Assembly: GCA_964035545.1 (NCBI GenBank)
Contig: OZ037770.1
Location: 1,996,001 to 2,060,000, forward strand
From: Bugula neritina
Taxonomy: Eukaryota > Bryozoa > Gymnolaemata > Cheilostomatida > Bugulidae
Reading direction: 5' to 3'
Length of the DNA: 64,000 nucleotides
Position numbers and translations under genes: made by a program. How positions within the stretch are numbered: position 1 is the stretch's first letter; every line of letters begins with the position of its first letter. Shown one piece after another: positions 6,238 through 36,400 of this stretch. The notes beneath the pieces are model-generated. The model was not told the origin of the DNA and did no database searches. It saw nothing but the letters and a program-made list of their open reading frames with translations.

Positions 6238-6432
6238 TCAGTTTTCTTCTGCGTTTTCCGTATTCAAGAGTAGGAGTGCTTCGTCAAGTTCATTGAGATA
6301 TTTTGCTGCTACGGGTGCATACCTGTTCCAAAAGCCTACATTATCATAGTCTCTTCTAAACTCTTGCTTTACCTCACCAACTCGATTAAGTATCCTCTGT
6401 TTTAATTTTAGCTGCTCATCTAGCTGCCTTCC
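6238..6432 (-). CDS. terminal coding exon, 64 codons and stop
   Basis: The acceptor is gtattttag and the stop codon TGA is at 6238-6240. It starts in phase 0 with [20 protein letters not shown] and ends [10 protein letters not shown]. Unlike the repeat exons it has an aromatic, non-coil segment ([16 protein letters not shown]) flanked by helices, so it may form a capping or interaction module. Confidence 0.85.
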   Translation of the reverse strand, partial: GRQLDEQLKLKQRILNRVGEVKQEFRRDYDNVGFWNRYAPVAAKYLNELDEALLLLNTENAEEN

Positions 6433-9400
6433 CTAAAATACAGCACAACAAAATATATTTAGTATAGTTGCCCAGTTAATATGCTTTGATATTTATTTTT
6501 GTAGCTAAAGCAACGGAGACGCTAGATAATAAATTTTACAAAACTAAAAATTTATCCCTTAAATACTTTAATATGTTGTTTTGCATACACGCGTGTCTTC
6601 ATGGTTTATTTTGTTTTCTTTCTGCATCTGCTTTTTACAATAAACAACCAGGTAATCAGAAACAACATAAATTGTTAATTCTTTATTCAACTACTAAAAG
6701 TTATGGATCAACAGCTTCAACAAATAATGAATGTTATTTTAAATCACACATCTTTATAATTTATAATCTATATTAATCTTAACAGATATGAGTGTACACG
6801 CTATGGATGCAAGTGCGGATAAATATGTATGATTGACTCCACGTGTGAATGTCTAGTATAGTTTAACCGACAGCATGGTATTAACATTACCTTTTAGGCA
6901 TTTGAAAATAAGCTTTGAACATGGTAGACATGGCGTTATTGATGCAAAAACCTAATTTAACATACTCCTGTAACACATTTTGAAGTACAAAAAAATAATT
7001 CTTCAGCTTTGCAAAAGTCTTTATTTTTAGACGTCTTATTTATAAAAACTGTGAGACCTCAGCTCAGATGTCCTGCAAATATGTAGAACTTTGAGAAACA
7101 AATGTTATCCTAATTGCATTATCCTTACCTTTATGCTTGCAATTTCAAATTGTTGTTGATACTTGATACTCTGTAACAAATTAAACAAAAATAACTGCAG
7201 TTAATTGACTTGTGAAGTCAAACTAAAATGTATACAGTATTAGTTGAAAATGAATAGAAAATAAGCTAAAACTACGCAAAATAGGAATCAGCATGTTTTT
7301 GTATTTCTCAAGAATGATCATAGTCTATAGTCTGTGTAAGTTTCTTTAATGCTTACTTTTATAACTAGCTCAATTCTGACACATAATTGAGGCAAACACT
7401 GCTTATATCATCAAGTTTTTTAAAAACATTCGAGTTTTTTAATTATACTGGTATGTATTTACCTCTTGTCTGACTGTGTCTCTTTCATTCGTCATCGCGA
7501 TTGTCTTCAAATTTCAAAAATAAAACTAAGCAACTTCAATCACCAGATATGAAAACTTAAAGAATTAAAGTCCTGACAGAAAAAAAATGTATAAGCCCAA
7601 GTTGCAGCTCTTAGTGTAAACTCTAGATAAGCATAGTTTTATAAGTTCTCTATCTACAACTTGGCTAAAGTTAAACCGTTTAAACAACAACAATTGCCAA
7701 TCTCTAAAAAGTGCAAAGTCTCAATACAGTTTTGATTAAAAGTATGGCCTAGCATTGAAAATATTGTATGTTGCTGTGCTAGACATATAACTTACCAGCT
7801 GTTTATAGAAACTCATAGGTTTATACTAAAACTGTATCCTAATATGTATATGTGAGTACACTTTTCTTGCAAATAAACTCTGGTGTTGATTAAACAAGTT
7901 ATCATTGTGAGTATGGAAAAGGTGAACCAAGAAAAGTATTGAAATATAATGCGGTTTATAGTCTTTAGCAGATAAGCTACAAGCTAACCTGAGACGATTG
8001 GCTAACTGCCTTACAAGCATTCGGATTCCCTACCAGATTTCCTACCAGCTTGTACGGCTTGGATATTGGCTATTGTGAGAGTGAAAGTAAAGACTGCACG
8101 AGGGGACTCTTACGCAGACTGTCGAGTAAGTAGGACCGTATATTACATGGCGCAGTCGGCAGGATTGTAGACAGTCAACAGTGGAGAAGGAGTGAATAGT
8201 GGAGCAGAATCAAATAGTGGAGTTTATAGAAGAATCAAATAGTGGAGTTTGGAGAAGAATCGATTTCAAATAGTGGAGAAGTGAAGAGCAGAATCAAATA
8301 TTGAAATAATAGAGGGAAACAGTGGAGAGTAACTATAAAAGCTTATTTGAGATACATTTGTAGAGTTTAGTTTGTGTTATCAGTAGAGTAAGAGTAAGAC
8401 TAAGAGTTAGTGGAGTGACAGTGAAATATCAATATTATTATTTATAATTCGGTTAGAGTATTAGATTTGATAAATTCAAATTTAGTATTAGGTTTAAGGA
8501 TTAACAGGGTTATTAAAATAATTAAGCTTTCTGGTAGTGATAATTAAAATTTTGAATTTTATATCACGCTCACATTCAGATCATAATGGCAACTAACACT
8601 AGGTTCACCGACCTCAATCGGTTTCCTAAGTTAGTTTTGAGCTCCGATAATCAGAGTGATTGTTTTAAGAAATGGTTGGTAAAATACAACTTGTCAGTTC
8701 GATTAGCAACCCTTGAAATGGGTACTGAAATGCTCTCCAGTATTGCAGTAAATAGATTTAGAGGTGAAGCTAAGTTTCTAGCTCTGCTCAATGCTATTGG
8801 AGATGAGGGTATTGATGTGTTACAATCTTTAGGATTTGATCTTGAAAGGAATGATGATAATGCTCATAATGATGCTTTAAATTTGTTGAAAGGCCACTAT
8901 GAGAAAACAGAAAATGTCCATGTGGGTTAAAGCAGCAACTTTGTCTCAAACACGTGGCGAAGATGAGCTAGAGTATTTGCTACGTGTTGAGAAACATATG
9001 GTAGTAGAAATTTAGGATTTGTTGAAGGGGCTAATGTGGAAGACCTTAGACAAAGGTTTGCTATTAGTATGGCAGTAGTTGGTTTAAGAGATGAATATCT
9101 TAGAAGACAACTTATGCTTAATTAAAATATCACTTGGAAAGCGTTGTCTGATATTTTGAAGACTAGGAATATTGCTAGAGAATCTGCTGCAATGGTTTCT
9201 GAGGTTAGATCTAGTAGTTCTAATTTGAATAATAACTTTGCTAACGTTGCTGAAGTTAGAACTAAATCTGATAGAGTAGGTACTAGAAGGTCATCTTACT
9301 ATGATAACGATAGACATAAAGGTAGATATAGTTCTAGAGATAGTAGTCGAGATTATTCTCGCCACAAGTCTCCAGACTATTGGAGTAGACATAGAGCTAG

Positions 9401-33400: not shown

Positions 33401-36400
33401 CCTGCAAACCAGAGATAGGAAAGATTAGTAAGAAAATATTAGACCGAATAAATAACAAAATTCTCACAAACACACACCTAAACCAATGGAAAAACACCAC
33501 TGATGTAATAAAATGGTTTGAAGGATCGAATTACCAACAAACATCAACAGACATTTATTTCATTTGACGTCATAGACTTTTAACCTTCAATTTCAAAAAG
33601 CCTACTTGAAAACGCTCTAACTTTTGCATCGGAATTTGATACAATTAGCGAAGATGAAAGAGAAATAATTATACATGCCAAAAATTCACTACTCTTCAAC
33701 TCTGGAAAGGCATAGGGAAAACATAACCACAACCTCTTCGACGTTACAATGGGAGGATACGACGGCGCAGAAACATGCGAACTAGTTGGGGCTTACATTT
33801 TAAACTCAATAACACTAAAACATGGCAAAAACTTCGGCCTGTACAGAGATGACGGCTTAGGAGTCTCTGACAAAACATCCAGAGAAATAGAGAACATAAA
33901 AAAGGACATCTGCAAAATATTTTCTGAAAATGGATTAAAAATAACAATCGAAGCAAATAAAAAAATTATTAACTTCTTAGACACCACACTCAACCTAAAC
34001 AATAAAACCTACACACCATACACTAAGCCAAACAGTTCTACTAAATATATTCATAACAAATCCAACCACCCAGCAAGCATAATCTCCAACCTACCCTCGT
34101 CCGTTAATAAACGACTGTCGTCAATATCATCTAACGAGAAAATTTTCACACAATCCACCTACAACCACCAAAACCTCCTTAAACCAAAATGGCTACAAAC
34201 ACCAACTACAATTCCTACCAAGAACCCAAACAAACAACACACAACAGAAATCTCGAAACCGAAAAAGAAAAGTTGTTTGGTACAATCCACCATACAGCCA
34301 ACATGTAACCACAAGAATTGCAAAAATCTTCTTTAAAATCATGAATGAGGAATTTCTAAAACAACACCCACTCTATAAAATAATCAACAAAAACACTATA
34401 AAGGTTAGCTACAGCTGCATGCCAAACATAAAACAGACCATAAATGCCCACAATATCAGACTATTAGAGAAACAGAAGCAACAAAACCCCCAGAAAAAAC
34501 TGCAACTGTAGAGAAAAAGAAATTTGTCCGCTGAAAGGAAGCTGCCAGGAGAGCAGAGTTATATACCAAGCAACTGTGGAAACTACCGAAAACGAGCTTG
34601 CAACATACATTGGCCTAAGTGAAGGATCGTTCAAACTAAGATACGCAAACCACAGATCATCATTTAAAAACAAGGAGAAAGCAAACTAAACAGAACTTAG
34701 CAAACACATTTGGCAACTAACTAACAAAAATATTAGGCACAACATAGGCTGGAAAATATTAAAAAAGCGAAACCATACAACACAACTACCAAAAGGTGTA
34801 ATTTATGCCTATGGGAAAGTTTCTTTATTTTATACAAACCTAACATGTGTACTTTAAACAAGCGAAACAAACTCTTATCAACCTGCCGACACTCAAAAAA
34901 ATTCTTACTGTGCAACCACAAAATTTAGAAACTTTGTAGCCTATTTATATTTTAAGTACTATACTAAATAATATACAAATACCCATAGAGAATAGTCACC
35001 CAACAAAAACTTCATGCATCTGCTATAAATTATGTTTTTACATTACATTATGGTTTTTATATATTAATTTACACCTACAAACCTATATAACAATACAGCC
35101 ACTGCTATGTTTTCGTTACGTTTTACCTTGTGTTTAGCATTTTGATTTTCTTAATGTACAAAACTTAAATTTGTCAATATTGTGCCTGAGGAGTGCCGAA
35201 GAGGCATGAAACTATTAGTAGTACAATAAAACAACATCTATATAATTAAATTGCTCTTTTCCTCAATAATATAATTGCTCATTATTATACACATAATAAT
35301 TTGAGCACTTTTTTATCGCTGTTTTTTAAAAATCTCACGATACAATTATTGTATATATATATATATATATATATATATATATATATATATATATATATAT
35401 ATATATATATATATATATATATATATATATATATATATATATATATAAATATATATATATATATATATTTATATATATATATATATATATATATATATAT
35501 ATATATATATATATATATATATATATATATATATATATATATATATATATATATATATATACATGTGTATATATATATATATATACGTGTATATATGTAT
35601 ACATGTATAATAATATTAACCTTTTCATTCAGCTCTTTTATCTTTATTTGAGCTGCTTCTTTCTGCTGTCTCTCTCTCTCTTTAAGCACTTCATTTTCTT
35701 TTTCAATATCAGCCTTGACCTTCTCTCTATAATTATTCAGTTGAAGTCTCAAAGACTCATCAATGTGATTGTCCAATACAGCTAAATATTTTCTAAAATG
35801 TAGAATTAAGTTGTTTATCTTAAACAATGACATAAAATCAATACAGCGATCTACTACAAATAAGCTATCTAAAAATGTACATAAGCTGCAACGAGTGACT
35901 AAAGCTAAAGATTTTTCATACTAAAAATAACAATAATTATCTCTTTCTTAAATAAGCCTCGAAGTCTATGAAATTCCTAACGACAGGAAAAGCAAATTCG
36001 TAAGATTTCAAAACATTTTGTATTAAAAACTCTCTCTTCCATAATAACTTTAGGCTTTTCAAGTTTTAAAGTATACATATTGTAAAGATTTGTGTTTCTA
36101 TCAGCAGAAGTGGCACAACCCCCATACTACATTCTGCTAGATTATATATATATATATATATATATATATATATATATATATATATATATATATATATATA
36201 TATATATATATATATATATATATATATATATATATATATGTATATATATATGTGTATATGTATATATATATGTGTATATATATACATATATATATATATA
36301 TATATATATATATATATATATATATAGATTCATATTTGGGTTCATAGGTGGTCAATTTGGTATGTATAACATCCATAGGGGGCTCTGTGCCCATAGGGGG

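Follow-up and report, generated by a model that had tools for sequence, protein, structure and literature searches.

In atlastins proper (ATL1-3), the middle domain is followed by two transmembrane helices and an amphipathic tail, and in the guanylate-binding proteins (GBPs) the C-terminal helical domain is compact. Small repeated exons are known from quite different genes. The stalk of the membrane lectin CD23 (FCER2) is encoded by a handful of repeated 63-bp exons of 21 residues each, and schistosome micro-exon genes contain numerous short, symmetric exons whose skipping leaves the frame intact, with varied exon lengths and short secreted proteins as products. The CD23 stalk is described as a coiled coil with a heptad pattern (PMC6791321). 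Here we analysed a locus of the bryozoan Bugula neritina in a window of 64,000 nt (contig OZ037770.1, positions 1,996,001 to 2,060,000), in which one gene on the minus strand, gene 1, carries an array of 42-nt exons running from 32624 to 7129. Coordinates are positions in this window, except where given for a chromosome (C6, B. neritina chromosome 6). Comparing the window with its neighbourhood revealed a tandem paralogue, gene 2, upstream of gene 1 on the same strand. We consider it likely, from sequence comparison, that the locus holds a tandemly duplicated bryozoan gene for an atlastin/GBP-type GTPase of the dynamin superfamily, in which a coiled-coil rod encoded by heptad exons replaces the transmembrane hairpin.

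The preliminary description of this DNA had reported 20 phase-0 exons of 42 nt, each with AG...GT borders and 14 open codons, and all of them were found. The array exceeds chance. Using a generic splice filter, untrained on these exons, and counting phase-0 candidates at lengths of 12-150 nt, we obtained 17 candidates of 42 nt on the gene 1 sense strand and at most three of any other length. The eight strands of four neighbouring stretches had 0-2 candidates of 42 nt and no more than four of any length, and 60 third-order Markov simulations gave five at most at any length. A looser search of both genes for coil-like segments of 21, 42, 63 and 84 nt, with a lower splice cut-off, yielded eight extra candidates (0 and 2 in the antisense control). 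Three of these, 42-nt exons consistent with the block pattern of gene 2, were accepted, raising the count in that gene from 47 to 50; four 21-nt candidates and one of 42 nt, all weak, were not.

We infer from the sequence that the 42-nt segments are joined by splicing. In silico, the 24 exons of gene 1 splice into one open frame, and the 60 predicted exons of gene 2 (50 of 42 nt, against 20 in gene 1) give a single open frame of 1210 residues with one terminal stop. Both genes have the exons termed F, G and H as well as the last exon. The span first assigned to gene 1, 6238..35792, proved too short: exon H begins in phase 1, and two additional exons, F and G, lie beyond it (Table 1). The GTPase-domain exons of gene 2 are outside the window, at 140847-176346 in window coordinates. 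The locus had been described as encoding a coiled-coil protein; the modular rod stands, and the account is completed by the GTPase, since in gene 2 the array is the tail of an atlastin/GBP-type GTPase gene.

The predicted head of gene 2 matched Pfam family PF02263, the domain of GB1/RHD3-type (atlastin/GBP) GTPases, at residues 40-283 (3.2e-25; 89.2 bits versus a curated cut-off of 21.1). When compared with the sequences of solved structures, it matched atlastin-3 best (5e-24), with atlastins, including atlastin-1, spanning 5e-24 to 1e-19, RNF112 at 2e-15 and GBPs at 1.6e-4 or weaker. The segments GAMRSGKSF and LIRDF align to atlastin-3 and contain the GTPase motifs, that is, the P-loop GxxxxGKS and the RD in the G4 region. 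Protein database searches with the GTPase part gave 4 hits in one run and 8 in another, comprising P0001, atlastins of distant relationship and a handful of unnamed proteins; the gene 1 protein returned nothing at E 0.001 among 7991 candidates scored. P0001, a B. neritina protein and the closest found, is 51% identical to the gene 2 head and matches PF02263 at 89 bits. Its AlphaFold model (mean pLDDT 68, 7 sequences) matches atlastin structures best, followed by RNF112 and GBPs. The start codon of gene 2 is probably the ATG at residue 6, near the beginning of P0001, and an additional 5' exon farther upstream is possible; the head exon at 140847-140959 has weak splice borders.

No transmembrane segment was predicted. 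The highest 19-residue hydropathy was 1.27 in gene 2, within the GTPase domain, and 0.64 in the gene 1 part, where a transmembrane helix usually exceeds about 1.6. Because no 19-residue stretch attains transmembrane hydropathy, the gene 2 product is most likely a soluble atlastin/GBP-type GTPase. A Pfam scan at E 0.1, which covered the head of gene 2, the gene 1 part and the end domain but excluded the tail of gene 2, detected no GBP C-terminal family; nor did a C-type lectin head turn up in the head of gene 2 or the gene 1 part. The gene 2 protein shares with atlastins the GTPase domain, for which atlastins are the top sequence and fold matches, but where atlastins have a transmembrane hairpin none was detected, and a long modular coiled-coil tail stands there instead. 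With GBP1, GBP2 and GBP5 it has in common the PF02263 domain, the lack of a transmembrane segment and a helical C-terminal part; however, the sequence match of GBPs to gene 2 is weaker than that of atlastins, and the Bugula rod of exon modules is long.

The exon arrangement has its own precedents. Tandem, phase-compatible, whole-heptad exons link the CD23 stalk to the Bugula genes (20 and 50 exons of 42 nt, and eleven of 63 nt in a third paralogue, gene 3), but CD23 is a membrane lectin with few repeated exons, whereas the Bugula locus encodes a GTPase with up to 50 exons of 42 nt. As CD23 shows the principle at small scale, the statement in the preliminary description that such an arrangement is unknown from other coiled-coil genes was too strong. 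Schistosome micro-exon genes are alike in their small symmetric exons; the Bugula array differs in its single exon length and its coiled coil, and a secreted gene of the schistosome type was dropped as an explanation after the GTPase head had been found. Literature on heptad-exon arrays and on atlastins or GBPs in bryozoans, judged by titles and the starts of abstracts, described no such gene. Nothing in it matched the number of exons (up to 50), the unit of 42 nt, the association with a GTPase or the use of a second unit length by a paralogue.

That second length occurs in gene 3, ~96 kb beyond gene 2. The exons of P0001, the relative of gene 3, match C6:2268658-2288312 on the plus strand, and an array at C6:2291970-2299697 (plus strand) comprises eleven 63-nt exons of three heptads each, one with a weak splice score, and one 42-nt exon. 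As genes 1 and 2 have 42-nt exons, whole-heptad exons occur in this cluster with two unit lengths. The last exon of gene 3 (2300351-2300503) weakly matches that of gene 1 (8/27 identical, E 4e-6 in a single comparison). The lone 42-nt exon, C6:2296378-2296419, resembles a 63-nt module minus one heptad. The public protein EB796_014659 (384 residues) matches the genome as far as C6:2288312, short of the 63-nt array starting at 2291970; the tail seems to be absent from this model, a hint that such tails can escape gene predictors. Further family members are located on chromosomes 5, 7, 8 and 9. When a shortened version of the gene 2 tail was searched against the whole genome (E <0.1), it recovered solely the last exon of each of genes 1 and 2, a result that cannot exclude other arrays because single 14-residue exons barely score.

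The translated modules have the periodicity of a coiled coil. In gene 2, hydropathy power at a period of 3.5 residues was 45.5 versus a shuffle maximum of 6.6 (47 modules; 2000 shuffles for each gene), and 50.1 with all 50 modules, the shuffle maximum being that of the 47-module version. Gene 1 reached 14.8 versus 9.3, and gene 3 exceeded its shuffles narrowly (11.3 versus 9.7; 11/12 modules). Genes 1 and 2 together have 70 modules, with a hydrophobic residue at position 1 in 81% of them, at position 4 in 83%, at position 8 in 51% and at position 11 in 63%, and in the ten 21-mers of gene 3, positions 1, 8, 15 and 18 are hydrophobic in 9 or 10 of 10.

Clustering the 70 modules by DNA sequence resolved 20 classes, lettered A-T. 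Their order is A BCDE BCDE FGHIJKLMNOPQR JKOPQ OPQR S GHIJKLMNOPQR JKOPQR in gene 2 and A T DE FGHIJKLM QR JKOPQR in gene 1. The 80 nt of intron upstream of each module had a median identity of 0.78 within a class versus 0.41 between classes (60 sampled pairs each), with slightly overlapping ranges (lowest 0.47 within, highest 0.53 between). As read from these class orders and introns, the array has grown through duplication of multi-exon blocks. At 22318/22301, the genes differ by three modules, of classes N, O and P, and both frame and register are intact. Because the modules are phase 0 and consist of two or three heptads, unequal crossing-over or exon skipping would alter rod length alone. 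Two earlier proposals are borne out here: that the rod changes length by exon duplication or loss, by the block duplications and the three-exon difference between paralogues; and that it is built of frame- and register-neutral modules, by the phase-0 exons, the open spliced frames and the 3.5-residue heptad periodicity.

By analogy with atlastins and GBPs, the head most likely dimerises on GTP, with the rod setting the distance to the target of the end domain. Gene 1 would carry the same GTPase head as gene 2. The rod, 12 to 50 heptad-multiple exon modules in predicted alpha-helical form and capped by the C-terminal end domain, would serve as a spacer or tether whose length can be adjusted; a fully helical rod would measure ~104 nm for gene 2, ~42 nm for gene 1 and ~36 nm for gene 3. 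The end domain would bind a partner or a membrane. One could go further and picture a GTPase tether whose reach is dialled genetically and by splicing, with rods of ~36 to 104 nm that change by 14 or 21 residues at a time and vary among gene copies, among individuals and among transcripts, possibly serving as a fast-evolving, GBP-like defence system. A role in defence would be in keeping with the clustering and the turnover, yet we regard this extended proposal as speculative and unlikely to hold in full. The locus nonetheless offers a natural experiment in which a protein rod is assembled heptad pair by heptad pair, with the exon as the unit, on a mechanochemical GTPase. It permits direct tests of exon duplication as a means of tuning rod length, and of splicing doing likewise, and it bears on whether long-range tethers arose, outside vertebrates, among large atlastin/GBP-type GTPases.

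Several observations weigh against a heptad-exon rod on an atlastin/GBP-type GTPase. The tether function is argued purely by analogy. In gene 3, the join between the P0001 exons, matched up to 2288312, and the array, starting at 2291970, is putative; a 48-nt candidate lies between them. Three of six family members showed no array in the tail stretch scanned (20 kb after C6:1818801, plus strand; 20 kb below C6:2308000, minus strand; 10 kb from C8:13083001, plus strand). One gene 1 module departs from the usual hydrophobic pattern (exon 2 in Table 1). The second heptad is weak: of the 70 modules, only 51% have a hydrophobic residue at its a position and 63% at its d position. Several modules contain glycine, with 24 glycines among the 47 gene 2 modules initially counted. 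In gene 3, positions 4 and 11, the d positions of heptads one and two, are mostly polar (hydrophobic in just 1/10 and 2/10). Given these weak heptads, glycines and polar positions, the rod may contain hinges. They would also suit a tail acting as a charged spacer, with hinges or some disorder, in place of a continuous coiled coil, a reading that we hold to be rather improbable, as the 3.5-residue periodicity lies above every shuffle and the tails of genes 1 and 2 contain no proline, that of gene 3 a single one. Finally, no match to GTPase exons for gene 1 was found between 5 kb upstream of the window and gene 2, and gene 1 could for that reason be headless.

The lack of a visible head, together with the repeated elements within the gene 1 introns and the absence of module classes B, C, N and S, might mark gene 1 as a copy of gene 2 that is decaying or has no head, with an array devoid of function. 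We think this quite unlikely: the 24 exons form one open frame, a dN/dS of 0.53 between genes 1 and 2 (23 exon pairs) suggests moderate purifying constraint, and a gene 1 head could lie in the 5 kb directly upstream of the window. Better placed, if still doubtful, is the idea that the modules are used combinatorially, with alternative splicing selecting subsets and so regulating rod length in the cell. The modules are all symmetric, phase 0-0 and 14 residues long, and are arranged in homologous blocks in tandem; this would allow such use, as would the introns between modules (medians 469 and 612 nt, minimum 95 nt); however, the passing of a generic splice filter by 17 of the 42-nt candidates in gene 1 suits constitutive inclusion. 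The uniform length might also be a mere by-product of copying one ancestral exon, without selection on the heptad, and within classes the modules are clearly duplicates. Between classes, though, exon identity is 0.39, and the classes are therefore old or separately derived, yet of one length; the units of gene 3 are again whole heptads, 63 nt long with one of 42 nt; and the introns gather gaps. Flanking introns had 115 gap openings in 17539 aligned nt, a rate that predicts 33 over the exon nt, whereas same-class exon copies had 0 gaps over 5040 aligned nt, a zero that is partly by construction because modules were found via their length, in a comparison whose pairs are not independent. A by-product of copying is, in our judgement, very unlikely.

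Table 1 Exons of gene 1 and its junction relative to gene 2, in transcript order (window positions).
Feature	Position	Strand	Description	Comparison and borders
Exon F	63748..63876	-	129 nt, helical middle domain, translation ends SLLEE	95% amino acid identity to gene 2 exon, AG/GT borders
Exon G	63409..63545	-	137 nt, helical middle domain, KIDYTEIKS...FQACYS	89% amino acid identity to gene 2 exon, AG/GT borders
Exon H	35621..35792	-	172 nt, coiled-coil entry, translation ends KELNEK	93% amino acid identity to gene 2 exon
42-nt exon 1	32583..32624	-		
42-nt exon 2	32251..32292	-	Departs from usual hydrophobic pattern	Without gene 2 counterpart
42-nt exon 3	26973..27014	-		
42-nt exon 4	26741..26782	-		
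42-nt exon 5	26426..26467	-		
42-nt exon 6	26251..26292	-		
42-nt exon 7	26041..26082	-		
42-nt exon 8	25530..25571	-		
42-nt exon 9	24521..24562	-		
42-nt exon 10	24182..24223	-		
42-nt exon 11	23368..23409	-		
42-nt exon 12	23013..23054	-		
Gene 1 / gene 2 junction	22301..22318	-	16 nt in gene 1	~750 nt in gene 2, with three extra 42-nt exons (classes N, O, P)
42-nt exon 13	21840..21881	-		
42-nt exon 14	16507..16548	-		
42-nt exon 15	15478..15519	-		
42-nt exon 16	12309..12350	-		
42-nt exon 17	11178..11219	-		
42-nt exon 18	11041..11082	-		
42-nt exon 19	7463..7504	-		
42-nt exon 20	7129..7170	-		
Last exon	6238..6432	-	195 nt including stop codon, C-terminal end domain, ends NAEEN	83% amino acid identity to gene 2; weak match to gene 3 last exon

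An upstream reading before exon H, beginning MSLFKINN, was rejected; it is disrupted by a 7-nt insertion in gene 2. At the other end of gene 1, the last exon differs from that of gene 2 at 17 of 195 nt, beside a flank in which the 150 nt upstream (6433-6582) are identical between the genes (0/150 differ) and the intron farther out is almost identical. This divergence next to an identical flank could mark a gene-conversion boundary or reflect diversifying selection.

Two copies of a mobile element, 94-97% identical, lie in gene 1 introns at 12617-14342 and 33528-35273; from the look of their open frames, we take them to be Penelope-like. In the same assembly, small contigs such as C188, C173, C190 and C174 encode kinase and GBP domains in whose frames TAA and TAG are numerous and TGA is scarce, as in ciliates with reassigned stop codons; the assembly seems to include ciliate contigs.

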